NCBI RefSeq assembly: GCF_000403355.2
Contig: NZ_KE159646.1
Location: forward strand, 1,578,258-1,642,257
DNA length: 64,000 bases
Direction: 5' to 3'
Source: Adlercreutzia caecimuris B7
GTDB taxonomy: Bacteria > Actinomycetota > Coriobacteriia > Coriobacteriales > Eggerthellaceae
This document shows, in pieces, positions 6,777 to 47,402 of the stretch (within the stretch, counting starts at the first letter, position 1; each line of letters opens with the position of its first letter). Under the pieces are notes generated by a model. That model did no database searches, was not told the origin of the DNA, and saw only the letters and a program-made list of their open reading frames with translations. The position numbers and the translations under genes were made by a program.

Positions 6777-8063
6777 CTATTCGGCCGCGCAGGCGACCGG
6801 CTCCAAGTCTTCCGGAAGGCCGATGTGGCCGAGCACGGCGCTGGCGGCGGCCACGGCCGGCGAGGAGAGGTACACCTCGCTCGTGGGGTCGCCCATGCGG
6901 CCGACGAAGTTGCGGTTGGTGGTGGCGATGGCGCGCTCGCCGGCGGCCAGGATGCCCATGTAGCCGCCCAGGCACGGCCCGCAGGTGGGGGTGGACACCG
7001 CGCAGTGGGCGTTGATGAAGATGTCCATGAGCCCCTCGGCGATGCACTGCTGGTACACCTGCTGAGTAGCCGGGATGACGATGCAGCGCACGTCCGGGTG
7101 CACCGTGCGTCCCTTGAGTACCGCGGCGGCCTGGCGCATGTCGTCCAGACGGCCGTTGGTGCAACTGCCGATGACCGCTTGGTCGATCTTCACGTCGCGG
7201 GCCTCGGCCACCGGGCGCGTGTTGCTCGGCAGGTGCGGGAAGGCCACCGTCGGCACGATGTCGGCGGCGTCAATCTCGATGACCTGGGCGAACTCGGCGT
7301 CCTCATCGGAGTAGTAGGCGGTATAGGGGCGCTCGACGCGGCCGTCCATATAGGCGCGGGTCACGTCGTCCACGGGGATGAGACCCGCCTTGCCACCGGC
7401 CTCGATGGCCATGTTCGAAATGGACAGGCGCTCGTCCATGGGCATGGTCGCAATGGCGCTGCCGGTGAACTCCATGGCCTTGTACAGGGCGCCGTCCACG
7501 CCGATCATGCCGATGATGTGCAGGATGACGTCTTTGCCTGTAACCCCCGGCGCCAGCTCGCCGTTAATGACGAACTTGATGGTCTCGGGCACCTTGAACC
7601 AGGCCTTGCCGCAGGCCATGCCCACGCCGGCATCGGTAGAGCCCACGCCCGTGGAGAAGGCGCCCAAGGCGCCGTAGGTGCAGGTGTGGCTGTCGGCGCC
7701 GATGATGAGGTCGCCCGCGCCCACGACGCCCTGCTCGGGCAGAAGCGCGTGCTCCACGCCCATGCAGCCCACCTCGTAGTAGTGGGAGATGCCCTGCTCG
7801 CGCACGAAATCACGCACGATCTTGGCCTGCTCGGCGCTCTTGATGTCCTTATTGGGCACGTAGTGGTCGGGCACGAGGATCACGCGATCGGCGTCGAAGA
7901 CGCAGTCGGTAATCTCGCGCACGGTCTTGATGGCAATGGGGGCCGTGACGTCGTTGGCGAGCACCAGGTCGAGATCGCATTCGATCAACTGGCCGGGCAC
8001 CACCTCGTCGAGCCCCGCATGGGCGGCGAGAATCTTCTCCGCCATGGTCATGGGACGAGTCAA
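6777..8063 (-). CDS. leuC: 3-isopropylmalate dehydratase large subunit
   Basis: Large aconitase-family subunit carrying the 4Fe-4S cluster. Cluster cysteines are visible in GSCTNGR and in the CxxC of [31 protein letters not shown] is also typical. The product is 428 aa, the length of the bacterial/archaeal-type LeuC. I choose the TTG at 8063 because AAAGGAG lies six bases upstream, giving [17 protein letters not shown]; an ATG four codons further in is the alternative, and an upstream ATG at 8087 would place the Shine-Dalgarno inside the gene. Confidence 0.95.
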
Positions 8064-8430: not shown

Positions 8431-10182
8431 CTACTTCTCAGCGAGCATCTTGCCGACCATGCGGCCGAAAGTGACGCACTTGCCCGCGTTCAGGCCCGCG
8501 GCCAGGTTCGGGTAGGTGCCGTTGTAGAAGCACCCGCCGTCGTTGCCCACGGCATAGACGCCCTCGATCACCGTGCCATCCTCGCGCATGGGCTGGCAGT
8601 CGTCGTTCACCACTACGCCGTCGGTCGTGCACAGGGTAAAGCCGCAGGACTTCACCGAGGCGTAGAACGGGGGCGTGCGCAGCTCGGACAGGCGGAAGGG
8701 CTCCTTGCCGAAATCGGGATCGAGCTGGTTGTCGAAGTTCTCGTTCTGGCGCTCGCAGGTTTCCAAAAACGCCGCCTTGTCGTCGCCCGTGAAGCCGAGC
8801 GCGTCGGCAAGCGCGTCCAGGGTGTCGGCCTTCACGATGCGGCCGTCGGCCACGAACTGCTCCATCTCCGGCTCGATCCACTCGTCCAGCTGGCCGGGGA
8901 AGGCGTCGTGATCGGAACCGCCCTCGGGCTGCATGTAGATGGTGGAGCAGCCCACGGTGTGGAAGCGCGGCACGTCGTTCTTCCAGTTGCCGTCCCACAC
9001 CTGGTGCCAGAAGCGTTCGCCGGCCGGCTTGCGGGAGATGGCGCTCTGCACGAAGTCGTAGGGTGCGCTCTCGTTGTGGAAGCGGCGGCCGTGGGCGTCA
9101 ACGCGCAGGAAGGGTTGGGAGGCGTAGAAGTGGTAGCCGTACTCCTCGCCGCCGATCTCGTAGGGGGTGCCCACCTCCTGGTCGGCCGTGAGCAGGCAGC
9201 GGTTGAACGACACCGAGGAGGGGTTCTCGTCCATATAGGCGCCCTGGCGCAGCAGGGCCAGGATACCGTCGCCGGTGCAGCTGGGGAAGGCGTCCATGGT
9301 GCCGTTGCAGGCGTAGCGGGTGGCATGGCGGTCGGCGAACATCTCCTGGTTGAAGGCGTAGCCGCCCGTGGCCACTACCACGCCCTTGGCGGCGTTCACG
9401 CGGATCATGCCGTCCGGGCCCTCGGCGTAGGCGCCCACTACGCGGCCGTCCTCGGCGATGAGGTCCACCATGGAAGTGTTGAAGCGCACCTCGCAGCCGT
9501 CAAACGACGCGATGTAGGCGTCCATAATCGCCGCCACATCGCCCTCGCGGGAGGGGTACTCGCCGTTGGTGCCGTGACCCGTGGGGAAGTCCTTGTAGAA
9601 GGTGCCCTCGGGCATGTTCCACTCCAGCTGCACCTCCATGCCGTTCTTCTGAAGCAGATCGGTGTACCAGTCGATGGCCTCGCCGGAGTTGAACGCCCAC
9701 TTCTTCAGAAGGCCCATGGACACCTGGCCGTTGGCGTAGCGGTCCATGTCGTTGACGATCTCCATGGGGTCGATGGCGGCCTTCTCGCCCTCGGCCTGCT
9801 GCAGGCGGCTGTTCACCGCGCCGAGCGCCGAGGAGCGCACGGAGTTGCCGTTGCCGGACTTCTCGATGAGCAGCGTCTTGGCGCCGTTCTCGGCGGCGGC
9901 GCAGGCAGCGAAGTAGCCGGCGGTGCCCGCGCCGATCACGAGCACGTCAGTGTCCACAGTCTCCACGCAGTCGGCGTCCGACACCGCCGGGGCGTCAACG
10001 AGCCATGCGGGCTTGCCCGAGGTGGACGCGAGGGCACCATCGGCGTTGGCGACCCCTTCGGCCGGGGTCGATTCGCCGGGCTGCTTCGGCGAGCAGCCGG
10101 TCACAGCCGCGGCGGCGGCCAGCGAGCCCAAGGCGGCCGCGCCGGTCAGAAACGAGCGGCGAGAAAGCGAAGCGTCGGTCAT
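8431..10182 (-). CDS. Tat-exported FAD-dependent fumarate-reductase-like flavoprotein
   Basis: A 583-aa FAD_binding_2 family oxidoreductase (fumarate reductase / flavocytochrome c flavoprotein superfamily). The N-terminus carries a twin-arginine motif (SRRSFLTG), an Ala-rich helix and a lipobox-like AVTGC, so it is probably exported folded and may be lipid-anchored. The dinucleotide fold is VIGAGTAGYFAACAAAENGA with the ribose-binding IEK; a C-terminal VYAVGNDGGCF completes the FAD site. No CXXCH haem motif is present, so electrons must come from a partner. Eggerthellaceae have many such enzymes, each reducing a particular organic acceptor; the substrate here cannot be read from sequence. The ATG at 10182 has AGGAGG six bases upstream. 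It is divergent from a LuxR-type regulator. Confidence 0.9.
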   Translation of the reverse strand: MTDASLSRRSFLTGAAALGSLAAAAAVTGCSPKQPGESTPAEGVANADGALASTSGKPAWLVDAPAVSDADCVETVDTDVLVIGAGTAGYFAACAAAENGAKTLLIEKSGNGNSVRSSALGAVNSRLQQAEGEKAAIDPMEIVNDMDRYANGQVSMGLLKKWAFNSGEAIDWYTDLLQKNGMEVQLEWNMPEGTFYKDFPTGHGTNGEYPSREGDVAAIMDAYIASFDGCEVRFNTSMVDLIAEDGRVVGAYAEGPDGMIRVNAAKGVVVATGGYAFNQEMFADRHATRYACNGTMDAFPSCTGDGILALLRQGAYMDENPSSVSFNRCLLTADQEVGTPYEIGGEEYGYHFYASQPFLRVDAHGRRFHNESAPYDFVQSAISRKPAGERFWHQVWDGNWKNDVPRFHTVGCSTIYMQPEGGSDHDAFPGQLDEWIEPEMEQFVADGRIVKADTLDALADALGFTGDDKAAFLETCERQNENFDNQLDPDFGKEPFRLSELRTPPFYASVKSCGFTLCTTDGVVVNDDCQPMREDGTVIEGVYAVGNDGGCFYNGTYPNLAAGLNAGKCVTFGRMVGKMLAEK

Positions 10183-36277: not shown

Positions 36278-36649
36278 CTACGCGCTCCTCAGCGACGGCG
36301 CACTATCCTCAGGCCCCGCTGCCTGAGCTCGCGCGCCCTCGGATGCGCGGATGCCCCTCACTGCCCCGGCGGCCGCGTCCTTCCCGGCATCTGAGAGGCG
36401 GGCGTAGTCATCGTTCATGACGGCCTGCCGTGGGTCGGCATAACTGTCAGCCTTAAAATCTCGGCCGGCAAGTTCGTCTAGGGTACACCCCAGAACATCA
36501 GCAAACTCCCAAGCAAGTTCCAAAGTAATGGGTCTGGCCCCTTGCTCATAGTTTGTATAGGTGTCCTTACTCATGCCGATATGTTCGGCGAAAGCCTTGG
36601 CGCTCTTGAAGCCCCGGTCTTTTCTAATTCGTTGAAGCTGCGTTTTCAT
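36278..36649 (-). CDS. CI-like phage repressor (XRE family)
   Basis: A 123-aa protein with an N-terminal XRE helix-turn-helix (SAKAFAEHIGMSKDTYTNYE) and a short C-terminal region in place of a peptidase S24 domain, so it would not be cleaved in the LambdaCI way. GAGGAGG precedes ATG 36649. It is divergent from the early genes, with promoters and a palindromic operator between them. Confidence 0.88.
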   Translation of the reverse strand: MKTQLQRIRKDRGFKSAKAFAEHIGMSKDTYTNYEQGARPITLELAWEFADVLGCTLDELAGRDFKADSYADPRQAVMNDDYARLSDAGKDAAAGAVRGIRASEGARAQAAGPEDSAPSLRSA

Positions 36650-36672
36650 GCGGGACCTCCTCTCGCAGCGAG

Positions 36673-36701
36673 ATATTACCCGCACTGAACAAAATTAGCA
36701 A
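36673..36701 (-). promoter_or_regulatory. Repressor promoter
   Basis: Minus-strand TTGCTA (36701-36696), 17-base spacer, TAATAT (36678-36673). It drives the CI-like gene. Confidence 0.65.
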
Positions 36702-36720
36702 TCTTTTTTACAAAATCTTG

Positions 36721-36748
36721 TTGACACTTTGCTCGTTCTGAGTAAGAT
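36721..36748 (+). promoter_or_regulatory. Early rightward promoter
   Basis: A perfect TTGACA (36721-36726), a 16-base spacer and TAAGAT (36743-36748), 50 bases before the first early gene. Confidence 0.75.
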
Positions 36749-36758
36749 AGCTAATTAG

Positions 36759-36777
36759 TTAGTTCGCTCCGAACTAA
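36759..36777. promoter_or_regulatory. Operator palindrome at the early promoter
   Basis: Perfect 8-bp arms TTAGTTCG-CTC-CGAACTAA, lying at about +5 to +25 relative to the predicted early transcription start. A bound repressor would block early transcription. Confidence 0.6.
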
Positions 36778-36799
36778 AAACGAAGGAAGGAACAGCGCA

Positions 36800-37093
36800 A
36801 TGAAGATCGACCGCAACGCATTTGACGCCCGCCGCAGCAACTGGGTGAGCGGCAGCCACGACGGGTACACCTTCGAGGCCAAGGTGTTCGCCGAGCCTAG
36901 CATGTTCGGCATCCCCACTCCACGATTCGAGGACGGCGGCAACGTCTCCAAGCTGGTCATCCGCGACGCCGAGGGGCGCGAGGTTTACGCCTACGACCGC
37001 GGGCCGTGCTACGGCGAGACGGTCCCCCACTACGCCGACGTCGCCAACGAGATCGTGGCCGCCCTAGAGGCCGAGTTCTGCGAGGAGGCGTAA
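36800..37093 (+). CDS. Early phage protein, unknown function
   Basis: A 97-aa protein with strong ribosome binding site GAAGGAAGGA. It begins MKIDRNAFDARRSNWVSG and contains a beta-rich middle (LVIRDAEGREVYAYDRG) and an acidic C-terminal helix. It is the first gene of the early operon, the spot often used by phages for antirepressors or small regulators. No family recognised. Confidence 0.75.
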   Translation: MKIDRNAFDARRSNWVSGSHDGYTFEAKVFAEPSMFGIPTPRFEDGGNVSKLVIRDAEGREVYAYDRGPCYGETVPHYADVANEIVAALEAEFCEEA

Positions 37094-37096
37094 GCG

Positions 37097-37339
37097 ATGA
37101 GGAACGAGAAGCTGTACCGCCAGGCTATCGAGATCGCCTCCTATGCTGAGGAGCGGTTCCTGGAAGCGCATGAGAAGAACCGCGCGGTATCGCCGGAACT
37201 CAGGGAGAGGCACCGCGAGACGTTCGTGCAGCCGGCCGCCGCCGAGGCGTGTGCCCAGCAGAGCCTCATCGCCGAGCTGTTCGGCGTGTCCGAGGAGAAG
37301 GTGCACCAGGACCTGGCCAGCGCCATCCTCGCGCGCTAG
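37097..37339 (+). CDS. Early phage protein, unknown function
   Basis: An 80-aa, mostly helical protein. A C-terminal segment (QSLIAELFGVSEEKVHQDLA) looks like a helix-turn-helix. It follows the preceding gene by three bases, so the two are co-translated. Function unknown. Confidence 0.65.
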   Translation: MRNEKLYRQAIEIASYAEERFLEAHEKNRAVSPELRERHRETFVQPAAAEACAQQSLIAELFGVSEEKVHQDLASAILAR

Positions 37340-37383
37340 GCGCCCCGTCAGGCCACCCGCGGCGACGTTAACAACGCGGGGCA

Positions 37384-37497
37384 GCTTGGGAACCGAATAA
37401 GGAGGGCGGCAATCGCTGTTCAAGAAACTAGTAAAGGCCGCTGTCCCGGATCACAGCGAACCCCCTTCCTGCCGCCCTCCTTATTCGGTTCCCAAGC
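37384..37497. repeat. Perfect 28-bp inverted repeat / long hairpin
   Basis: Arms at 37384-37411 (starts GCTTGGGAACCG, ends GGAGGGCGGCA) and 37470-37497 are exact reverse complements over 28 bases. The 58-base centre contains a second 7-bp pairing (TCGCTGT at 37413-37419 with ACAGCGA at 37453-37459). No ORF crosses it and there is no terminal T-run, so it is not a simple terminator. It may be a structured RNA, an invertible segment, a replication or packaging signal, or a tiny mobile repeat. Confidence 0.9.
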
Positions 37498-37527
37498 CCC
37501 TCATTCCACACCCGCACTGAGTTGGCA

Positions 37528-37554
37528 GATGCAATCCCGCCAAGGCATTGCATC
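37528..37554. promoter_or_regulatory. Palindrome before the second XRE gene
   Basis: GATGCAAT-11-ATTGCATC, perfect 8-bp arms, about 40 bases upstream of the XRE gene start. Likely its operator or an RNA hairpin in the leader. Confidence 0.45.
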
Positions 37555-37591
37555 CCCCAGATCACTGCGAGAACACAGGAAGGAGGAAAAC

Positions 37592-37828
37592 ATGGCATGC
37601 ACCAAGGAGCAAGTCGGAGAGTGCATCCGCGCGGAGCGTGCACGACGCAAGTGGAGCCGCGATGACCTTGCGGAAGAAACCGGCATCCCGGCAACCACCA
37701 TCGGCTCGTACGAGAACGCTAAGAGCGGCATCACCCTCGACAACGCCTGGGCATTGGCCGATGCGTTCAAGATGCCCATCGGCTCTCTCTTCGGCCGCGA
37801 CGAGAGCAAGTACGAGAAAGCAAGCTAA
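37592..37828 (+). CDS. XRE-family regulator (Cro-like)
   Basis: A 78-aa single helix-turn-helix protein (WSRDDLAEETGIPATTIGSY, then ENAKSGITLDNAWALADAF). Its size and place in the rightward early region suit a Cro-like regulator or a second repressor. ATG 37592 has GGAAGGAGG upstream. Confidence 0.88.
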   Translation: MACTKEQVGECIRAERARRKWSRDDLAEETGIPATTIGSYENAKSGITLDNAWALADAFKMPIGSLFGRDESKYEKAS

Positions 37829-37851
37829 CCGACCAAGGAAGGAGCACCCAC

Positions 37852-37993
37852 ATGGAAGGCGGCGGAGGACCCCGGCGGCGCGTACGCCGTTGCCGAACTC
37901 GGCAAGGCGTACGCCGCCATCCTGGACGCCGAGGCGAGGCGCGACGCCTCAAGCATCGGCTCCAAGCTGCTCGAAGAGATCAACAACCTGTAG
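37852..37993 (+). pseudogene. Small phage gene with a frameshift just after the start
   Basis: ATG 37852 has a perfect AAGGAG, but in its frame the peptide is an Arg-rich shadow. One base later the frame encodes a normal-looking helical peptide (AYAVAELGKAYAAILDAEAR, ending in KLLEEINNL) that stops at 37993 and has no start codon. Deleting one G after ATG would give a 46-aa protein MKAAEDPGG... I infer a one-base insertion, either real or a sequencing error; a programmed frameshift is less likely. Confidence 0.55.
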
Positions 37994-38004
37994 AGGAGGA
38001 ACAC

Positions 38005-38226
38005 ATGAACGAACTCAACATCCGAGAGGTGGTCGGCCTCATCGCCGACGCCCTGTCCGAGGGCGCCCGGGCCGTGGTCGCCATCGAGCGCAAGCCGGGC
38101 GGCGCGGGCTGCGGCCTGACCGTCTCGAAGGCCCCCAGCTGCGTGCTGGACGCCGTGACCGACAACGGCTACTACGCCGCCCCCGACTTCGGTGGCACCG
38201 TCATCGCCGCCGAGGAGGTGCTCTGA
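38005..38226 (+). CDS. Early phage protein, unknown function
   Basis: A 73-aa protein with GAGGAGGAACAC before the ATG, so translation begins here and not in the longer open frame that starts at 37852. It has a helical N-terminus and a beta-rich rest (GARAVVAIERKPGGAGCGL). Its stop overlaps the next start (ATGA). Confidence 0.7.
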   Translation: MNELNIREVVGLIADALSEGARAVVAIERKPGGAGCGLTVSKAPSCVLDAVTDNGYYAAPDFGGTVIAAEEVL

Positions 38227-38534
38227 TGGAGAACCGCGTGAAAGTGCGCGCCTGTTTCCAGGGCTGCAACATCAAGAGCGGCAAGACCGTCATGCAGTTC
38301 GAGCTGGACCCCGAGCACAAGGGCGCCCTTCCCCAGCTGGCCATTATGACGGGCACCTTCACCACGCTCGAAATGACCAGCGACCAGCTGGTCATCCCGG
38401 TGGATGCGAGCAGCGGCGAGGTCCTGGACGGCCAGGATGAGACCTTCGACGAGGAGTTCTGGGTCGACGGTGAGCCGATCGCCTTCGAGCTGCCGCCCGC
38501 CGGCTTCGAGTACGAGGAGGACGAGGCGGCATGA
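38226..38534 (+). CDS. Early phage protein, unknown function
   Basis: A 102-aa acidic protein, mainly beta (KVRACFQGCNIKSGKTVMQF, LVIPVDASSGEVLDG), with an Asp/Glu-rich C-terminus. It looks like a small OB- or barrel-type protein as seen beside phage recombination genes. No family assigned. It overlaps both neighbours. Confidence 0.7.
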   Translation: MENRVKVRACFQGCNIKSGKTVMQFELDPEHKGALPQLAIMTGTFTTLEMTSDQLVIPVDASSGEVLDGQDETFDEEFWVDGEPIAFELPPAGFEYEEDEAA

Positions 38535-38737
38535 TCACCGAGTGGCCCGTGCCCGCCGAGTTCCCGCTCTACGCGCCCATCGACAGGGCCGCGGAGATCG
38601 CCGGGGTGTCGCGGGACAAGATGCGGGAGTGGGCGCACGACCAGCGCGACCCGCTGCCGCAGATACCGTGCGGCAGGAAGCGCCTCGTTCGCATCGGGGC
38701 CCTGCCGGAGTACCTGATGAGGAGGGAGTGCGTATGA
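38531..38737 (+). CDS. Small excisionase/AlpA-like DNA-binding protein
   Basis: A 68-aa protein with a MerR-like helix-turn-helix (APIDRAAEIAGVSRDKMREW) and a following basic wing (IPCGRKRLVRIGAL). This pattern is typical of excisionases and AlpA-like regulators. It is far from int, so it may be a regulator rather than the excisionase. Confidence 0.7.
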   Translation: MITEWPVPAEFPLYAPIDRAAEIAGVSRDKMREWAHDQRDPLPQIPCGRKRLVRIGALPEYLMRRECV

Positions 38738-38988
38738 GGAAGATCGAGATGCCGGCGCGGGGCGGGTCCAATCGCATCCCGCGCCGGAAGGTGCATCGTC
38801 GCCCTTACGCGACGCCGGAAGTGTACCGCATCGCGGGGCTTCGCATCAAGGCCCTGGCCCGCGCGGCCGCGCCGTTTTTGGCGTGCCTGGCGCTGCTGCT
38901 GGCCGTGTGGGGCTACTCCATCGCCTTGTGGGACACGGCCTACAACGTGGGCCTGGGGGCATCGGGGGCTGGCCATGCGCAACGCTGA
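38734..38988 (+). CDS. Small single-span membrane protein
   Basis: An 84-aa protein: 45 basic residues followed by one membrane helix (AAPFLACLALLLAVWGYSIA) and a short polar tail. It overlaps both neighbours by four and fourteen bases. Function unknown. Confidence 0.6.
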   Translation: MRKIEMPARGGSNRIPRRKVHRRPYATPEVYRIAGLRIKALARAAAPFLACLALLLAVWGYSIALWDTAYNVGLGASGAGHAQR

Positions 38989-39418
38989 CGGAATCGAGAC
39001 CGCCCTCTACGACGGGGTGCCCATGACGCCCGAGCGGCGCGTGGAGCACGCCCTGGCCTGGATCGCCGGGGACTACCCCCGCAAGTGGCTGCGCCTCGTG
39101 AACCTCTGCGAGGAGGCGGCCTGGTCGGGCTGGCCCCGCATCCGCCGCGGCGACCTGTACGTGCTGGCCTCGCAGCAGGGGCTGGACATCACGCTGTGCC
39201 GCGAGTTCCGCATGGACAACAACCTGTGGAGCGTGCTCAGCCGCTACCTGCTGATGTTCCGCCCGTCCCTGGCCGCCGTGATCTTCCCGAAGACCACCAA
39301 GGCGCTCGATGACGGCTCCATCGACTTCGAGGCCCTGTGGCACGACCAGGTTGCGCGCAACACGTTCTTCCGCGCCCCCACGTGGGAGGCCGCTGCCAAG
39401 AGGGGGCGGTCGGCATGA
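38975..39418 (+). CDS. Phage protein, unknown function
   Basis: A 147-aa protein, helical and rich in Trp and Arg (RKWLRLVNLCEEAAWSGWPR). No family recognised. It overlaps the RuvC-like gene by four bases and may be a partner of DNA processing. Confidence 0.65.
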   Translation: MRNADGIETALYDGVPMTPERRVEHALAWIAGDYPRKWLRLVNLCEEAAWSGWPRIRRGDLYVLASQQGLDITLCREFRMDNNLWSVLSRYLLMFRPSLAAVIFPKTTKALDDGSIDFEALWHDQVARNTFFRAPTWEAAAKRGRSA

Positions 39419-39903
39419 ACATCGTGGCCGTGGACCCCGGCACCTCCAACACCGGCATCGTGTACATGAACGAGCGCCGCATCATCTGCGCCAAGACCCT
39501 GCGCTACAAGAGCACGGTGAAGGCCGACCAGTACGCCCTGCGCGATCGCGCCGACAACATCGCGCGGCAGCTGAGCGCGTGGGTGGCCGACAAGCCCCAC
39601 GAGGTCATCGTCATAGAGGGCTTCCTGGGCTACCCGGGCAAGGGCGGCGGCTACGTCTTCCAGACCCCGTACCTGTGCGGCTACCTCCACGCGGCCCTGC
39701 GCGGCGAGGAGATCGCCATACAGACCAGCAGGCAGGTGCTCAACCCGAAGTCCCGGGGCAACACGGCCGACCTTCGCACCCTCATGGAGCGCGGCGCGAA
39801 CCCCTACCCCGGGTGCGAGCACTGCACCAACGACCACCTGCGAGCGGCCGCGTGCCACGGGGCGTACTACCTCGCGCACCATCTGAGGCCGGGCCATGCG
39901 TAA
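39415..39903 (+). CDS. RuvC-like Holliday junction endonuclease
   Basis: A 162-aa RNase H-fold nuclease. The acidic catalytic residues are in NIVAVDPGTSNTGIVYMN, VIVIEGFLGYPG and the C-terminal NDHLRAAACHGAYYLA. Phage RuvC-like enzymes resolve branched DNA before packaging or during recombination. ATG 39415. Confidence 0.82.
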   Translation: MNIVAVDPGTSNTGIVYMNERRIICAKTLRYKSTVKADQYALRDRADNIARQLSAWVADKPHEVIVIEGFLGYPGKGGGYVFQTPYLCGYLHAALRGEEIAIQTSRQVLNPKSRGNTADLRTLMERGANPYPGCEHCTNDHLRAAACHGAYYLAHHLRPGHA

Positions 39904-40471
39904 GGGGGCCAAGAGGCGGGACTGGTCGGTCGAGGAGGAGCGGTACCTCGCGGCGAGCGCGGGGCGCATCCCGAAGCGGGACATATGCCTCAAGCTGCGC
40001 CGGTCCTCCAAGAGCGTCGAGCGGAAGGCCGCCGCCATGCGGGCGGCGGGCGCCGACATCGACCTGAGGTGCTACCGCCCGTCCCTCTCCCCCTGCCCGC
40101 GGTGCGGGTGCATGTCGGGGACCATCGACAGGCGCGGCCTGTGCGAGCCGTGCAGGCGCCGGGAGCAGCTGGCGGCCATCCAGTCGAGGATAGCGGCCAT
40201 GCTCCCCCGGCTGCCGGCCGCCGAGCGGGCCGTCTACGCGCGGACCGAGTCCATGCTCGAGTCCCGCGCCGAGCCGCTGCCGGAGGCGCCCGACACGTCG
40301 GGCATGAGCAGGTGGCGCAGGGCCTACCGCGAGGAGGCTCACGCGCTGGCGGTCGAGCAGGCCGTCGCGCGCAACCTGCGCCGCGAGGTCAAGGCGGCGC
40401 AGAAGCGCAAGGAGCGCATCCAGAAAAAACTGAAATCAATGGGGGTTACCCAGATAGGAGCAGAGAAATGA
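39896..40471 (+). CDS. SANT/Myb-like and zinc-ribbon DNA-binding protein
   Basis: A 191-aa basic protein. Residues about 5-50 form a SANT/Myb-like helix-turn-helix (DWSVEEERYLAASAGRIPKR, SSKSVERKAAAMRAAG). Residues 66-88 hold a CxxC...CxxC zinc site (PCPRCGCMSG, RGLCEPCRRR). The C-terminus is a long charged helix. A role as a phage transcription or replication factor is inferred. Confidence 0.65.
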   Translation: MRKGAKRRDWSVEEERYLAASAGRIPKRDICLKLRRSSKSVERKAAAMRAAGADIDLRCYRPSLSPCPRCGCMSGTIDRRGLCEPCRRREQLAAIQSRIAAMLPRLPAAERAVYARTESMLESRAEPLPEAPDTSGMSRWRRAYREEAHALAVEQAVARNLRREVKAAQKRKERIQKKLKSMGVTQIGAEK

Positions 40472-40815
40472 AGAAAAAGAAGATGCAGGCGATGATGGCC
40501 GCGGGGCCCCACATCCCCGTGGAGGTGGCCACGGCGCTGATCGACGAAATCGACGCCTCCGATCCGGATTCCGGCATGGGGGACTTCGGCAAGGGCGCCG
40601 CGGCGGCCCTCGCGTTCCTCTCGTGCGGGCCCGAGTACGGCATGCACGGGGCCGGCTTCGCCGACTTCATGGCCAACGCCAAGGCCGTCGCCGATCGCGC
40701 GGCCGAGCCCCCCGAGGAGGTCGTCGGGGCCGCCATGGAGGTCATCGCGCAGCTGGAGGCCATGGGCGTGAGCGTCGTGAGCGCCGCCATCGTGAAGGAG
40801 GTGCCCCGTGGCTAG
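40468..40815 (+). CDS. Phage protein, unknown function
   Basis: A 115-aa Ala-rich protein with an Asp-rich segment (LIDEIDASDPDSGMGDFGKG). The overall composition is helical. It overlaps both neighbours. Function unknown. Confidence 0.6.
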   Translation: MKKKKMQAMMAAGPHIPVEVATALIDEIDASDPDSGMGDFGKGAAAALAFLSCGPEYGMHGAGFADFMANAKAVADRAAEPPEEVVGAAMEVIAQLEAMGVSVVSAAIVKEVPRG

Positions 40816-42034
40816 CATAGAGACCGTCAGCATCGAGGACGTCTACCCCCTGACCGACGAGTACGGCAACTCGATGGCCCGCCGCGACTACTCGCTCAAG
40901 GCCAACAAGGACTACGTCAAGCGCCTGGCCGAGTCGTTCAACCCCGAGACCAAGCTGCCCGACGAGCCCGTCGTGCTCGTGCGCGACGGCGGGGTCTACC
41001 GCATCAAGACCGGCAACTCCCGCGTTGAGGCCATGAAGCTGCTCAAGGTCAAGTCCTTCCCGGCCGTGGTGGAGGACGGCGACGCCGGGGCGGTCGTGGA
41101 GGCCGCCTGGCGCACCGACACCAAGAAGACCTACGAGGCCGAGGAGCGCGCCGAGATATTCAAGGCCCTCACCCTGTTCGGCGACGACGAGTACGTGGGC
41201 CGGATCACCGGCATCGACGCCGAGCGCGTCAAGCGCATCCGGAAGGGCTCGAAGCGCGCCGGCGAGGCCATGGAGCAGATGACCATGGACTGGATGGAGG
41301 CCGTGGGCGAGTTCGAGGGCGACCCCGAGGCCGCCAAGGCCATCCTGGACGCCGGGGCGAGCGGCTGGAGGTACGAGGCGCAGCAGCGGCGGGCGGCGGC
41401 GGCCCGTGCGCGGTGGCGCGCCGAGATGGAGGCGGCCCTGGCCGATGCGGGCGTGGAGGTCGCAGACGGGACCCCGGACGGCATGCACTACAAGAAGCTC
41501 CTCAAATCCCCGGGAGACCTCGCCGACATCGACATCGAGCCGGGCGCGAAGGCCGAGTTCAACAAGTGGAACACCTGCGCGTGGCTCTACTTCCCCGGCG
41601 GGGGGAAGGCCGCCGACCCCGAGAGGGAGCAGATGCTCGCCCGGCGCGACGAGGCCGGATCCCAGTTCGAGGAGGCCGACAAGTCCCGCTCCAAGTGGCT
41701 CGCCGAGCACCTGGAGGAGATCGACCCGGCCGCCATCCTCAAGGCGCTGCCGGCGGGCGCCGAGATCGAGGTGTACGACTACGACGTGATCAAGTTCTGC
41801 GAGGCGCACGGGGCGGAGATCCCGATCGGGCCCGCCGTGACCGTCGCCGCGTTCTGCGAGGCGAGCGCCAAGCCGTGGGGCAAGTGGAGCGACAGCCCGG
41901 ACCCGGACGGCTGCCGCAGCTTCGTGGCGCTGACCGACGCCATGGAGCTGTGCGGCTACGAGCCGCCCGAGGCGGAGCAGAAGCTGTACCAGACGTGCGT
42001 AGACGCCATCGGGAAGGAGGACGCAGATGAGTAG
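40808..42034 (+). CDS. ParB-like nuclease domain protein
   Basis: A 408-aa protein. The N-terminal 110 residues resemble the ParB/sulfiredoxin nuclease domain (LPDEPVVLVRDGGVYRIKTG, then NSRVEAMKLL), followed by a helical DNA-binding region with HTH-like YVGRITGIDAERVKRIRKGS and a long charged C-terminal part. Phage members of this family are often near methyltransferases or terminases. Starts with GTG 40808 overlapping the previous stop. Confidence 0.8.
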   Translation: MASIETVSIEDVYPLTDEYGNSMARRDYSLKANKDYVKRLAESFNPETKLPDEPVVLVRDGGVYRIKTGNSRVEAMKLLKVKSFPAVVEDGDAGAVVEAAWRTDTKKTYEAEERAEIFKALTLFGDDEYVGRITGIDAERVKRIRKGSKRAGEAMEQMTMDWMEAVGEFEGDPEAAKAILDAGASGWRYEAQQRRAAAARARWRAEMEAALADAGVEVADGTPDGMHYKKLLKSPGDLADIDIEPGAKAEFNKWNTCAWLYFPGGGKAADPEREQMLARRDEAGSQFEEADKSRSKWLAEHLEEIDPAAILKALPAGAEIEVYDYDVIKFCEAHGAEIPIGPAVTVAAFCEASAKPWGKWSDSPDPDGCRSFVALTDAMELCGYEPPEAEQKLYQTCVDAIGKEDADE

Positions 42035-42941
42035 CGATGCCGTGGAAGTCGCCGCCGAGGTCATCGAGCCGACCGGCGAGCTGGCCGTGACGTACACGCC
42101 GGCCGTGATCGACGACAACCTCGAAGCCCTCAACGCCTTCGTCGAACAGCAGATCGCGCCCTACATCGGCGCGCAGATCGACCCTAACGACTACGAGCAG
42201 GTCAAGGAAGCGCGCAAGTGCATGGCAGACCTCAACAAGCTGAAGAACCCTATCGAGGCGGAGCGCAAGCGCATCAAGCGCGAGTACGAGGCGCCGCTCA
42301 AGGCGCTGGAGAGCAGGGTCAAGGCGATCACGGCCAAGATCGACGAGGCGCGCGCCGTCCTCAAGGTCCAGGTCGACGAGGCCGATGCCCGCTTCAAGGA
42401 GCTGCGCCGCGCCGTCCTCGCGGAGGAGTACGAGGGCTGCGCCGGCCCGATCGCCGACGTCATCCCCTTCGCGGCCGTCCTCGAGGACGCGTGGCTCAAC
42501 CGCTCCACGCCCGAGGCGAAGGCAGCCGACGCCCTGTACGAGAAGGTGGGGAAGGCGCTCAAGGGCTACAAGACGCTGCAGACCAAGGAGCTCGTCCACA
42601 AGGACGAGGTGGTCAAGCACTACGCCGATACCCTCGACCTCATCGCCGCGCTTGAGCTGGAGGACAGGCTGAACGAGCGCGACCGCGAGATGGCCGAGTT
42701 CAAGGCGGCCCAGGAAGCCGCCCGCCTCGTCGCCGAGGAGCGCAGGGCCCCCGAGCCTGAGCCCGAGCCCCAGCCGGAGCCAGCGCCCCGGGCGGAGCCT
42801 GCGGCCGATCGGTTCAGATGGGCGCTGTCCATGGAGTTCGAGGGCACCAAGGAGTTCGCCACCTCCGTGGCCCGCACCCTCAAAGGCCTGGGGCTCACGG
42901 GAGCATCCATCGTCTGCACCGGGGTGATCGGACATGACTAG
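42027..42941 (+). CDS. DUF1351 family phage protein
   Basis: A 304-aa protein with the coiled-coil core of DUF1351 (ARKCMADLNKLKNPIEAERK, VKAITAKIDEARAVL). A Glu/Pro repeat linker (EPEPEPQPEPAPRAEPAA) and a C-terminal beta-alpha domain (FEGTKEFATSVARTLKGLGL) follow. DUF1351 genes lie next to single-strand annealing recombinases in many Gram-positive phages, as here. Exact function is unknown. Confidence 0.85.
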   Translation: MSSDAVEVAAEVIEPTGELAVTYTPAVIDDNLEALNAFVEQQIAPYIGAQIDPNDYEQVKEARKCMADLNKLKNPIEAERKRIKREYEAPLKALESRVKAITAKIDEARAVLKVQVDEADARFKELRRAVLAEEYEGCAGPIADVIPFAAVLEDAWLNRSTPEAKAADALYEKVGKALKGYKTLQTKELVHKDEVVKHYADTLDLIAALELEDRLNERDREMAEFKAAQEAARLVAEERRAPEPEPEPQPEPAPRAEPAADRFRWALSMEFEGTKEFATSVARTLKGLGLTGASIVCTGVIGHD

Positions 42942-43827
42942 CGAGATAGTGCGTTACAAGGCCGACAACGGCCAGGACATCGAGGTGACCGAGCAGGACG
43001 TGCGCGACCTCATGGCCGCCAACGGCACCACCACGTCGAACGTGACGGCGCAGGAGATAAAGACATACCTGCGCCTGTGCCAGGCCCAGCGCCTCAACCC
43101 CTTCACGAAGGACGCCTACCTCGTGAAGTACGGCACGAGCCCGGCCACCATCATCGCCGGCAAGGAGACGTTCACCAAGCGAGCGCAGCGAAATCCCAGG
43201 TTCCGGGGGTTCGAGGCCGGCATCACCATCTTCGGCACTGACGGCAAGCTCCACCGCCGGGAAGGCTCCATGCTCCTCGACGGGGAGATCGTCGTGGGCG
43301 GCTGGTGCAAGGTGTACATAGCCGGCTACGAGGCCCCCATGTACGACGAGGTTTCCTTCTCCGAGTACAACACCGGCAAGAGCAACTGGCTGAAGATACC
43401 GGCGACCATGATCCGCAAGGTGGCCATCTGCCACGCCCTGCGCGAGGCGTTCCCCGAGGACCTGGGGGGCCTCTACGGGGCCGAGGAGATGGACCAGGCC
43501 GCGCCGCAGCAGTCCTATGAGGAGCCCGCGCCCCAGGCGCCCGCAGCGGTGGCCGTCGAGGCGGCCCAGGCGCCTCCCGAGCCGCCGGCGGCCCGGCCCA
43601 TCGACGAGTACAAGCTCGCGCTCGTCCGCGCCCGCGACGAGCGCGGCGTCCCCGTGAAGGAGGCCATGGCCAAGGTGCGGGAGACCATCTCCAAGCCGCC
43701 CGAGGAGTACGACGCGGCTGACATCGCCTCCGCCGTGGCCATCGTGGACGCCCTGGGTGCGCCCGAGCCCGAGTACGAGCTCGTGGAGGAGCCGCTGCCC
43801 CTGTCCGAGTACGACATCCCGTTCTAA
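42934..43827 (+). CDS. RecT/Bet family single-strand annealing protein
   Basis: A 297-aa recombinase of the RecT/Redbeta superfamily. Typical segments are IKTYLRLCQAQRLNPFTKDA, PATIIAGKETFTKRA, and NWLKIPATMIRKVAICHALR. The C-terminal 100 residues are a Glu/Pro/Ala-rich linker ending in a short acidic tail (ELVEEPLPLSEYDIPF) that may recruit single-strand binding protein. No exonuclease gene is seen beside it. Confidence 0.9.
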   Translation: MTSEIVRYKADNGQDIEVTEQDVRDLMAANGTTTSNVTAQEIKTYLRLCQAQRLNPFTKDAYLVKYGTSPATIIAGKETFTKRAQRNPRFRGFEAGITIFGTDGKLHRREGSMLLDGEIVVGGWCKVYIAGYEAPMYDEVSFSEYNTGKSNWLKIPATMIRKVAICHALREAFPEDLGGLYGAEEMDQAAPQQSYEEPAPQAPAAVAVEAAQAPPEPPAARPIDEYKLALVRARDERGVPVKEAMAKVRETISKPPEEYDAADIASAVAIVDALGAPEPEYELVEEPLPLSEYDIPF

Positions 43828-43839
43828 GGGGGCAGGCGC

Positions 43840-44529
43840 ATGGGAATGGTAATCCACGATGACTTCTGGGCGGCATGCCAGGCCATGCCCGAGAAGCAGC
43901 GCGCCCCGTTCCTCTACGCCCTGGCCGAGTACCGCTTCGAGAAGAAGGAGCCGAAGGGCAGCCCCGCGTGGCTGCCCACCTTCATCGCCTTCAAGCAGCG
44001 AATCGACTTGAGCGACGAGGCGAGCGCCAAGGGGCGCAAGATGGCCGAGGCGAGATGGGGCAAGAAGAGGGCGGCATCGGACGGACGCGATGCCGCCGCA
44101 ACGCACGGGCACGATGCACGAGCAGATGCGCAAGCATATGCGCGTGCATATGCAGCAGTATCGGAGTCGTTCGATGCTGAGAAAGAGAAAGAGATAGGAG
44201 TAGATATACCCCCCTATAGTCCCCCCGCGATCAGCATCGAGGACGCGCCGTTCTGGATGCGCTGCCTCGCCGCATTCAACGACGCGAGGGGGACGGCCTA
44301 CACGACGATGCCCGAGAAGTGCCGGCGCACGCTGGAGCGGGCGGAGGGCTCCTACACGGTCGAGCAGGTCGGCGCCATGGTCGCCTACAAGTGCGACCAG
44401 CTGGCCAAGACGAGGTGGAAGGGGTGCCGCACGCCGAGCTTCCTCTTCTCGCCCGACCACTTCGAGGAGTGCATGCACCAGTCCATCGAGGCGCGGGAGG
44501 AGGCCGACCGCTATGCAGACTACGCCTAG
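43840..44529 (+). CDS. DUF6291-containing phage replication initiator
   Basis: A 229-aa protein with an N-terminal DUF6291-type module (FWAACQAMPEKQRAPFLYAL, SPAWLPTFIAFKQRIDLSDE), a low-complexity linker (about residues 75-130), and a DnaD-like/phage-conserved C-terminal module. The layout, just before a DnaC-like loader, is that of phage replication organisers. The linker codons have an odd composition and carry repeats that may form the origin. Confidence 0.78.
   Translation: MGMVIHDDFWAACQAMPEKQRAPFLYALAEYRFEKKEPKGSPAWLPTFIAFKQRIDLSDEASAKGRKMAEARWGKKRAASDGRDAAATHGHDARADAQAYARAYAAVSESFDAEKEKEIGVDIPPYSPPAISIEDAPFWMRCLAAFNDARGTAYTTMPEKCRRTLERAEGSYTVEQVGAMVAYKCDQLAKTRWKGCRTPSFLFSPDHFEECMHQSIEAREEADRYADYA
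44110..44215. other. Candidate phage replication origin
   Basis: Inside the initiator gene, two copies of the palindrome GCATATGC (44134-44141 and 44146-44153) spaced 12 bases, embedded in GATGC/ATGCA/TGCGC repeats (44114-44180). An AT/purine-rich patch (GAGAAAGAGAAAGAGATA and TAGATATA) follows. This resembles origins located inside O-type initiator genes. Not tested. Confidence 0.4.
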
Positions 44530-45262
44530 GGGCTTCGTCTCCGGCCCCAAGCCGTGCCCCCACTGCGGGCGCGTCCTCCAGCCCCTCACCGCCGACCTCA
44601 ACGGGCGCGAGGTGTTCGCGGGCTGGGAGCCCTGCGGGTGCGACGGGGCCGCGGCCGCCAGGGCCGAGTGGGAGGCCGAGCGGAGGAGGGCCGACGAGGC
44701 TGCTTCCGCCGCTTCGTGGGAGCGCAAGCTGGACGCCTCCGGCATCCCCCCGCGCTTCCGCGACGCCCGGCACCCCTGGGCGCGGAGGCTGGCCGAGCGC
44801 ATCGCCGCCGGCGACGGGCTGTACCTGCACGGGGGCAACGGCACCGGCAAGACCACCCTGGCCTGCGCGGCCGCCCTCATCTGCCTCCGCAACGGGATGA
44901 GCGTTCGGTTCGCCGTGGCCACCAAGCTGCTGGACGAGCTGCGCGAGTTCGGCGAGGCGCAGAGGGAGCTGCTGGCGGCCCTCGCCAGGTGCGACCTGCT
45001 CGTCGTGGACGACCTGGGCAAGGAGGGCGCGGCCACCCCGAGGGCCGCCGAGAAGCTGTTCGACCTGTTCAACGACCGCTACAACTCCCAGACCCTCGTC
45101 CACCCCAGGCCCTTCGTGGTGACGAGCAACTTCCCCCGCAACGAGGTCGCGGTCCGCGTGAGCGACGGGGGGTCCGGAGTGGCCATCGCCAGCCGGCTCA
45201 GGGAGACGACCGAGGCCGTCCTGATGGACGGCGACGATTGGAGGATACATGGCAAGAATTGA
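44513..45262 (+). CDS. DnaC/IstB-like helicase loader ATPase
   Basis: A 249-aa AAA+ protein. An N-terminal zinc motif (CPHCGRVL...CGC) is followed by the Walker A (LYLHGGNGTGKTTLACAA), Walker B (CDLLVVDDLGKEG), sensor 1 (PFVVTSNFP) and an arginine finger region (IASRLRETTEAV). It would load the replicative helicase at the phage origin. It overlaps the initiator by 17 bases. Confidence 0.92.
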   Translation: MQTTPRGFVSGPKPCPHCGRVLQPLTADLNGREVFAGWEPCGCDGAAAARAEWEAERRRADEAASAASWERKLDASGIPPRFRDARHPWARRLAERIAAGDGLYLHGGNGTGKTTLACAAALICLRNGMSVRFAVATKLLDELREFGEAQRELLAALARCDLLVVDDLGKEGAATPRAAEKLFDLFNDRYNSQTLVHPRPFVVTSNFPRNEVAVRVSDGGSGVAIASRLRETTEAVLMDGDDWRIHGKN

Positions 45263-45989
45263 CGTCATCGAGCAGGCCGACGCCCTGGGCGCGCTCCGCG
45301 GCGTGCCGTCGGGGTCGGTGGGCATGCTGCTCACCGACCCGCCCTACTCCAGCGGCGGCCTGTTCCGGAGCGACCGCTCGGGCGCGACCTCCGAGAAGTA
45401 CCAGACCCGGGGCTTCGCCAAGAAGCCCGACTTCTACGGCGACAACCGCGACGAGCGCAGCTTCGTGCTGTGGTCCGTGCTGTGGCTCTCGGAGTGCTAC
45501 CGCGCCATGGAGGACGGCGCCAGCGCCGTCGTGTTCTCCGACTGGAGGCAGCTTGCCAACGTGGCCGACGCGGTGCAGGCGGCGGGCTTCGTCTTCCGGG
45601 GAATCGTCCCGTGGCGCAAGACCTCGTCGCGCCCCCAGCCCAACAGCTTCCGCAACGAGTGCGAGTACGCCGTATGGGCGACCAAGGGCGCGATCGACCG
45701 CGCTCCCGTGGCCGGCGCCAAGTACCTGCCGGGCCTCTACTCCGTGCCGGCCCCCGTCCGCGAGGAGCGCGTGCACTCCACCCAGAAGCCCCTGGAGCTG
45801 ATCAAGTCGCTCATGGAGATCGCGCCCGACGGGTGCGTGGTGCTCGACCCTTTCATGGGCTCGGGCACCACCGCCGTGGCGGCGATAGAGACGGGGCGCC
45901 GCTTCATCGGCTTCGAGATGTCGCCCGAGTACTGCGCCCTGGCCAACGAGCGCGTCTCGCGCGCGAAATCTGCGGGAGGGGTGGCTTGA
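45249..45989 (+). CDS. DNA adenine/cytosine-N4 methyltransferase
   Basis: A 246-aa beta-class N6_N4 methyltransferase. It has the catalytic DPPY motif (MLLTDPPYSSGG) N-terminal to the SAM-binding motif (LDPFMGSGTTAVAAIETGRR), plus HSTQKPLELI. No restriction gene lies beside it, so it is a solitary phage methyltransferase, perhaps for protecting phage DNA or controlling replication. Target sequence unknown. Confidence 0.92.
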   Translation: MARIDVIEQADALGALRGVPSGSVGMLLTDPPYSSGGLFRSDRSGATSEKYQTRGFAKKPDFYGDNRDERSFVLWSVLWLSECYRAMEDGASAVVFSDWRQLANVADAVQAAGFVFRGIVPWRKTSSRPQPNSFRNECEYAVWATKGAIDRAPVAGAKYLPGLYSVPAPVREERVHSTQKPLELIKSLMEIAPDGCVVLDPFMGSGTTAVAAIETGRRFIGFEMSPEYCALANERVSRAKSAGGVA

Positions 45990-46400
45990 ATGGCTAGGGT
46001 CACGACTCTGCCGCGGATGTGGTGGCCGATGATGGGCAGGCCGAGCACCCGGCTCCCCTACTGCCCCGTCTGCGGGCGCACCTCGCCCCTGGAGCAGCAC
46101 CACGTCGTGAGGCGGGGCGCCGGCAGGCTGTTCGACGCCAGCGGGCGTGAGGTGCCCAAGCCCACGGTGACGCTGTGCGGCTTCGGCAGCAATCTGCTCG
46201 ACGCCGACGGGAGGCCCTACTGCCACGGCCTGGCGCACCACAACCGGCTGCACTTCCGCTGGGCCGAGGTGCGCGGCCTGGAGGAGCCGCTGGGCGGCCT
46301 CCCCTGCCCCTGGGAGGGCGGCCACTGGGAGTACCTGCTGCTGGACGAGCCGGCCGACTACCTGACGGCCCTGGGCATGGACGGGTGGAGGCGGCTGTGA
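45990..46400 (+). CDS. HNH-like zinc protein
   Basis: A 136-aa protein with CPVCGRTSPLEQHHVVRRGA near the N-terminus and a second metal-like cluster (YCHGLAHHNRLHFRW), matching a phage HNH-type or recombination-associated (NinG-like) fold. Catalytic activity cannot be confirmed. It starts right after the methyltransferase stop. Confidence 0.72.
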   Translation: MARVTTLPRMWWPMMGRPSTRLPYCPVCGRTSPLEQHHVVRRGAGRLFDASGREVPKPTVTLCGFGSNLLDADGRPYCHGLAHHNRLHFRWAEVRGLEEPLGGLPCPWEGGHWEYLLLDEPADYLTALGMDGWRRL

Positions 46401-46534
46401 GCAACTACCCCGACGGAACCTGGGCGGGAGACCCCCGCGCCCCCTGGAACGAGCCCGGCGAAGACCCCGAATGGGAAGACGAATACGACGACCCTCACAT
46501 CGACATGCTGCGGGAGGAAGGATACGAACGATGA
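46397..46534 (+). CDS. Small acidic phage protein
   Basis: A 45-aa Asp/Glu/Pro/Trp-rich peptide (DPEWEDEYDDPHIDMLREEG) starting with GTG 46397, overlapping the previous stop. Acidic small proteins of this type occur between phage replication and packaging modules; function unknown. Confidence 0.55.
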   Translation: MSNYPDGTWAGDPRAPWNEPGEDPEWEDEYDDPHIDMLREEGYER

Positions 46535-46689
46535 TCGACAAGGAAACCGCCAGCTACATCTGGCGCTGCATCTGCAACCACGACGGCTACTCGGAGGACA
46601 GGGGCGAGTGGTGCGACGCCCTGGAAATCGACCCCGAGGCCTGCGACGAGTTCGAGCAGTTCGTCGCCGAGAAGATCGAGGAGCTGTAG
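46531..46689 (+). CDS. Small phage protein
   Basis: A 52-aa acidic protein with a Trp/Cys-containing helix (SYIWRCICNHDGYSEDRGEW). The start overlaps the previous stop. Unknown function. Confidence 0.6.
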   Translation: MIDKETASYIWRCICNHDGYSEDRGEWCDALEIDPEACDEFEQFVAEKIEEL

Positions 46690-46691
46690 CC

Positions 46692-47402
46692 ATGGAGCGG
46701 AAAGACCCCAAGGACATGACCGCAAGCGAGCTGCTGCGCCATATTGCGCGAACCGTTGAAGACGAGGAATGCGCCAGTGACGCCATAACCTGGCTGCGAA
46801 TGAAAGCGGGCACTGAAGAAACACCGAACTATGGGGCAGAGATGGCGAACGCGCTTGAAGCTGTCGCAAACAAAATCGACGCCGAGATCGAGGCGGCCCG
46901 CAGGGACGCCGTGAAGGAGTCTAAGAAGCCCATGCGGTGGTTCCGGAGCGCCATCCGGCAGGGCGAGGACTGGCCCGAGCCCCGCGACGGCGAGAAGTTC
47001 CGCGAGTACCTGAGACGCTGCTTCATCCTGCTCCCCCGCTACGAGGATGGCGAGCCGGTGCGGTTCGGCGAAGATACCGACAAGCTGCACGAAGTCGAGA
47101 AGCTCATCTTCACGCGCTCCGGCGAGTGCTGCCAGATGCAGGACGCCCGCGGGAACATGCAAAATGCATTCCCCGGCCAGCGCGTGAAGCGCCCCGGCCC
47201 CGAGATGCTTGGCGCCGACGGGAAGCCCATCTCGGTGGGGGAGACGGTGTACAGCAAGAACACCGGCTCGGTTTATACGGTGCTGAAGGTCAAGCCTTTG
47301 GCGGATCTGGTGACAGTCGGCATCTACAACGGCATCGCCTTTGACGTCAACCATGCATCTCTCACCCACACCCCGCCCGACGCCCGCAAGGGAGGCGAGT
47401 AG
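46692..47402 (+). CDS. Phage protein, unknown function
   Basis: A 236-aa protein with an N-terminal helical region (MTASELLRHIARTVEDEECA) and a C-terminal SH3-like beta region (PISVGETVYSKNTGSVYTVL) of the sort seen in phage-encoded DUF1642-like or similar proteins. Codon use in the first 60 codons is slightly less GC-rich than its neighbours. Function unknown. Confidence 0.65.
   Translation: MERKDPKDMTASELLRHIARTVEDEECASDAITWLRMKAGTEETPNYGAEMANALEAVANKIDAEIEAARRDAVKESKKPMRWFRSAIRQGEDWPEPRDGEKFREYLRRCFILLPRYEDGEPVRFGEDTDKLHEVEKLIFTRSGECCQMQDARGNMQNAFPGQRVKRPGPEMLGADGKPISVGETVYSKNTGSVYTVLKVKPLADLVTVGIYNGIAFDVNHASLTHTPPDARKGGE

Follow-up and report, generated by a model that had tools for sequence, protein, structure and literature searches.

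The 64,000-nt stretch of Adlercreutzia caecimuris B7 DNA analysed here (the window) carries a perfect inverted repeat at positions 37384-37497. An earlier note, made from the letters alone, had placed this repeat in the early region of a prophage, and the protein family searches bear this out, giving an integrase, two Cro/CI-type helix-turn-helix (HTH) proteins, a DUF7678 protein and a RuvC-like resolvase. The helix sits downstream of the DUF7678 gene, with the integrase and a CI-type HTH gene on the opposite strand. Upstream of it is the gene of an 80-aa early protein (37097-37339, + strand), which has homologues in four other genomes among the 138 searched and also on one IMG/VR contig. Downstream is a Cro/CI-type HTH gene (37592-37828, + strand; Pfam HTH_3), the product of which is 68% identical in genomes G058 (Enterorhabdus sp. 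P55) and G060, and had no match when searched in IMG/VR. The only promoter-like site in 36600-38100 (TTGACA, 16 nt, TAAGAT; 36721-36748, + strand) is a candidate early promoter ~640 nt upstream of the helix. No promoter-like site was found in 37400-46600, and on the + strand the terminator search up to 46600 gave a single site, a stem of 5 pairs at 38855. Since there is one promoter and the stretch is poor in terminators, we infer that the helix most likely lies at this distance into one long early transcript.

The left, leader-like arm of the helix (37384-37411, + strand) is complementary at 28 of 28 positions to the right, trailer-like arm (37470-37497, + strand), and the two arms enclose a loop of 58 nt (37412-37469, + strand), a short "cargo" when compared with the 214 to ~570 nt of the other elements described below. 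The 28-bp perfect repeat and the 114-nt element are thus as first reported. This is the sole perfect inverted repeat of at least 14 bp (loop up to ~300 nt) in the window, and it is not due to chance: the expectation for perfect 28-bp repeats with a loop of 3-100 nt is 1.6 × 10−9, and 40 Markov-1 simulations of a 64-kb sequence reached 15 bp at most. The predicted RNA fold of the + strand has an energy of −67.6 kcal/mol, against −32.05 for shuffled sequences (sd 3.16, z −11.25). A further 7-bp pairing within the loop (TCGCTGT/ACAGCGA), pointed out earlier, does exist, but the predicted fold favours a competing CGCTGT/ACAGCG pairing. The remark that no ORF crosses the element is true for plausible genes, whereas mechanical ORFs on both strands enter it. 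No T-run follows the right arm, as had been noted, and there is no terminator-like site in 36600-38100, so an intrinsic terminator was rejected. A scan of this region against Rfam gave nothing above the gathering threshold (17 sub-threshold matches, mostly microRNA precursors), and the corresponding slot of G058 gave one sub-threshold match and none above the threshold.

Folding of the whole interval 37336-37592 (−121.4 kcal/mol) predicts three consecutive structures. Element A (37344-37383, + strand), a hairpin or possibly an H-type pseudoknot, lies directly 5′ of the motif described below, and its sequence is conserved in G058, G060, G057 (Adlercreutzia faecimuris, Eggerthellaceae) and locus L089. 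By eye, a GTC of its 5′ flank could pair with a GAC of its loop, and a TAACAA is conserved; in G057 a change from G-C to C-G could preserve the stem, although the predicted fold differs. Hairpin C (37513-37569, + strand), directly upstream of the ribosome-binding site of the HTH gene, is conserved as well, its core GATGCAAT/ATTGCATC being found in the same four places. Such a row of three structures in an early operon, with the outer two conserved, is what one would look for in a protein-free antiterminator or structured leader resembling put, canT or conAn2, in which A, the stem and C would directly affect either the polymerase or how the HTH gene is translated. We nevertheless hold this to be improbable, as a third lineage, represented by G057 and L089, keeps A and C with neither stem nor motif, and a perfect stem whose letters change freely would offer little specific surface.

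The 5′ base of the helix resembles the host's own ribosomal RNA leaders. The 16S leaders of the B7 genome read GGCACCTTCACAACCGGATACTGAGGATGG and have a trailer complementary to the leader, and the rrn leaders of B7, G053, G057, G058 and G101 have in common G(C/A)ACCTT(G/C)A.AACCGGATACTG just 5′ of the 16S gene, the last four in the form G(C/A)ACCTTGA.AACCGGATACTG (16S was found in 5 of the 12 genomes queried, and the leader of G137 is cut off at a contig end). A related copy of the motif lies in the 16S-23S spacer. Co-folding of the leaders and trailers of B7, G058 and G101 predicts that the arms pair from CCTT on, drawing the motif into the helix. By its position, and by a partial likeness to GYTCTTTAANA, this rrn motif appears to be the boxA of these bacteria. 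In the prophage, the boxA-position motif CAGCTTGGGAACCGAATA (37382-37399, + strand) is similar to the B7 pre-16S leader motif CACCTTCACAACCGGATA; where four leaders agree, at 15 positions, it has 3 changed letters. Other phage elements also open with the rrn motif, for example CACCTTGACAACCGGATA in L108 and AACTTTGAGAACCGAATA in L090b, and one of the three B7 changes, GAATA for GGATA, is common to most of them.

The association between motif and repeat was evaluated with a matrix built from the four distinct rrn leader motifs, phage sequence not being used. Over the whole window and both strands, the best site of this matrix was 37382 (17.0-17.2 bits, rank 1 of 127,966), the runner-up being a site of 16.7 bits at 47291 on the other strand; with column-shuffled matrices any site at the repeat ranked first in 1 of 300 and first or second in 2 of 300. 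Among 26 repeats found independently of the motif, 11 had one of the two best motif sites of their locus within 30 nt and 15 had none, while 300 shuffled matrices on the same 26 repeats gave a mean of 1.3 and a maximum of 4. The 11 do not amount to 11 independent events, since L098 and L099, and likewise B7 and G058, are related, and two of them, L103 9349 (4.1 bits) and L102 6923 (11.0 bits), are weak; the G058 motif scores 7.9 bits owing to a one-base insertion. Omitted from the 26 were the G058 element where it recurs (L086, L092), hairpin C (L086, L070), the repeats in L109, L112 and L118, and the G137 repeat. When 18 loci were scanned, 9 had a site of at least 15 bits, two (L086 and L087) had the weak form with the insertion, and 7 were without a good motif.

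A strict form of the motif, MACYTTGANAACYGAATA, to which those of B7 and G058 are not exact matches, occurs 8 times in 5 of the 138 family genomes, from all of which the reversed control is absent. In IMG/VR, a repeat adjoins the motif in 6 of 66 loci compared with 12 of 1,320 positions drawn at random from these loci, L164 among the six being a short-loop hairpin and L185 a repetition of the G002 phage. Twenty matches in the motif scan of these 66 contigs belong to one AT-rich family without a repeat and were set aside as chance or coding. Two further motif copies, in L140 and L145 (G010), have identical flanks on different contigs, and no 16S signature was seen in their 3-kb loci. Locus L102 of G116, where genes distantly homologous to these phage genes are found, has two longer perfect inverted repeats, one of 43 bp (6923-7041) and one of 51 bp (8508-8610), which are apparently unrelated to the helix.

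The 114-nt element itself is present once in the B7 genome. It has no match among the INPHARED phage records in a nucleotide search, its exact left arm is absent from IMG/VR, and blastn against the 138 family genomes returned, besides itself, short matches only (best E 0.0016), which we take as chance. The perfect terminal inverted repeats, and the corresponding slot of G057 and L089, where the element is missing, could point to a small mobile repeat (MITE-like) or an invertible segment. However, the single copy and the absence, by eye, of a target-site duplication speak against such an origin, and the slot in relatives holds arms that are different yet self-complementary. We regard it as very improbable, and the suggestion of a tiny mobile repeat, together with the MITE reading, was dropped; the invertible switch of the earlier note likewise finds no support.

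In G058 and G060, the slot after the 80-aa gene is occupied by the motif and a stem of ~20 bp, its arms spelt otherwise than in B7 and its loop longer than 300 nt; the IMG/VR contig with the 80-aa homologue carries the G058 element letter for letter and G060 is 99% alike, which makes them one lineage. On the minus strand of L072 (G137), a motif at 1849 is followed by a perfect helix of 22/22 pairs directly after the 80-aa homologue, the arm letters again differing from those of B7 and the loop being ~369 nt long; a type II element (see below) lies ~0.5 kb beyond this helix. G007, which is 82% identical at a nearby gene, has no motif within 9 kb and only a 16-bp repeat ~5 kb off. A contig on which gp38975 is 83% identical (L090) has two elements, a small ORF following closely on each of them, and L108 was reached via an interior stretch conserved in long elements. 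The motif, the helix and their register, all established computationally, recur in prophages, within the family in G002, G058, G060, G137 and a second place of the B7 genome, and also on IMG/VR contigs. The earlier note had offered a phage RNA with a very long stem as one possibility, and stems of other letters that pair at the same slot, together with the rrn-leader motif at the left arm, support it. Of its statement that perfect identity implies selection or recent origin, selection on pairing fits. The likeness to the rRNA leader and the two conserved flanking hairpins were beyond the reach of that note.

Two layouts can be distinguished. In type I, the motif continues into the left arm as in rrn; this layout is seen in B7, G058, L090a, L090b, L108, L126, L185, L177, L208 and L148, and also in G137 (L072 1849). 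In type II (L072, L097, L098 and L099), a 20-24-bp hairpin is followed 4-11 nt downstream by the motif and then by an ORF, as judged by eye. The motif alone is found just before early ORFs in L096, L104, L098 (5465) and L099 (5599), and in L098 a 14-pair repeat lies further downstream of the motif. The core AACCGAATA shows little change across the first ten elements of type I. Core positions 10-21 of these ten vary freely, yet 114 of 120 cells are paired, with 53 both-side changes, a degree of pairing that is partly selected since members were either recognised as repeats (B7, L090a, L090b and L108) or retained for having a helix (L126, L185, L177, L208 and L148). Both-side differences between B7 and G058 fall at positions 3 and 8 of the aligned core. 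The common motif and register are free of this selection, and so are the stems of other letters that G058 and G137 have in this slot. Within that caveat on selection, the aligned letters indicate that the long helix is preserved through compensatory change. The CTTGA of the motif is unpaired or nearly so in L108, L185, L177, L208 and L148, partly paired in G058, L090a and L126, and paired in B7 and, with wobbles, in L090b.

In the G002 prophage (L146, the same as L185) and in L126 of the B7 genome, the motif stands, by eye, ~40 nt after a promoter-like sequence. The helices of these two elements have 26/28 and 22/23 pairs, respectively, and enclose a small ORF plus an inward antisense unit made up of TGGTAGAAT, a Shine-Dalgarno sequence and an ORF. 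L126, the second element of the B7 genome (C1:1822.7k), lies beside a CI-like gene, and its helix encloses an ORF of 128 aa and, on the antisense strand, one of 64 aa.

RNase III processing hairpins are known from phage early messages, those of T7 being an example, and like them the B7 repeat would place a long duplex between early genes; here, however, the duplex comes with an rrn-leader motif, and the register of the two recurs. The helix might do nothing more than provide a cut in the early message that separates the 80-aa gene from the HTH gene, its rrn-leader likeness reflecting a preference of the nuclease or a partner, with antitermination absent. A perfect duplex of 28 bp, an RNase III encoded in the B7 genome and the changed letters of the B7 motif are all compatible with such a role. 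The motif also occurs without a long helix before the early ORFs of the four places given above, and it follows shortly after promoter-like sequences, which a mere cutting site would not need. We judge a simple cutting hairpin to be rather unlikely.

The reading that we favour, and think reasonably probable, is that the repeat is an RNA of the phage early transcript with a miniature pre-16S leader/trailer layout, probably cut by RNase III and possibly serving Nus/boxA antitermination. The boxA-position motif would run into the left arm of the long helix, the short insert would stand where 16S rRNA would be, and the right arm would close the helix. The missing motif in G057, L089 and G007, and the loci and repeats that lack a good site, count against this reading. 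Once the early transcript is made, the helix would fold and become a substrate of host RNase III, whose cuts would divide the message and free the insert. Host Nus factors may bind the motif as they do on rRNA, which would render the polymerase resistant to terminators across the long early operon. Both functions of the helix, processing and antitermination, are what we infer from this resemblance. Processing is the safer half and antitermination the weaker one, since the letters of the B7 motif are changed and the partner arm follows after only 58 nt; for the same two reasons, the B7 copy may be processing-only or decaying. The arrangement suggests that the phage borrows host machinery for read-through or cutting of its early message.

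In the phage element, as in the rrn leader and trailer, a long helix spans an insert and has the motif at its base, and the host motif is also drawn into its helix; the differences are that the phage insert is 58 nt (or small ORFs/RNA) instead of 16S rRNA, that the location is a phage early operon, and that the motif letters are partly changed. The lambda nut site (boxB-boxA, protein N) is similarly an RNA site of a phage early operon with a boxA-position motif, and in B7 and G058 a predicted hairpin stands just 5′ of the motif, but the phage motif here departs from the enteric consensus. A CRISPR-boxA is reportedly the subject of an eLife paper. In E. coli, boxA recruits NusB-S10 so that the polymerase resists termination, while the helices of leader and trailer are cleaved by RNase III (PMC10250234). 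PMC5725501 describes boxA antitermination as classically belonging to rRNA operons and lambdoid phages, with an extension to some other genes. HK022 put, which is located downstream of early promoters (PMC9378689), Tn916 canT, pLS20 conAn and B. subtilis EAR are mobile-element or operon-leader RNAs that make the polymerase terminator-resistant (PMC9378689, PMC11658703, PMC8955417); our element is likened to them by description only, and the word boxA has 0 occurrences in these three papers.

Our searches found no literature on phage pre-16S-like elements, most subscription journals being outside their coverage. If phages do imitate the leader-trailer helix of pre-16S rRNA as well as its boxA position, this would add a further route by which they hijack the ribosome-making machinery, here in gut Actinomycetota, and the helix, motif and cargo offer concrete, testable sites.

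More tentatively, the elements could form an RNA class of Eggerthellaceae phages and mobile elements that imitates the front and back of pre-16S rRNA, the 16S slot being a cargo bay and the host machinery transcribing, excising and perhaps being titrated by the RNA. The cargo of such a class, an equally speculative matter, might be small ORFs, the inward antisense unit or small RNAs. The interior stretch GACCGCGTCCTCAAAA of the long elements occurs in 2 of the 138 family genomes and in 17 IMG/VR stretches, and in three of the latter (L108, L113 and L073) it lies inside such an element. Its derivation from the interior of the 16S leader was considered and dropped, since by eye G058's own leader is without it. 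In L087, L090 and L108, the antisense GACCGCGTCCTCAAAA falls in a tiny frame (..LRTRSL.., assigned by eye) after a Shine-Dalgarno-like stretch, and some long elements have a −10-like TGGTAGACT near this antisense frame.
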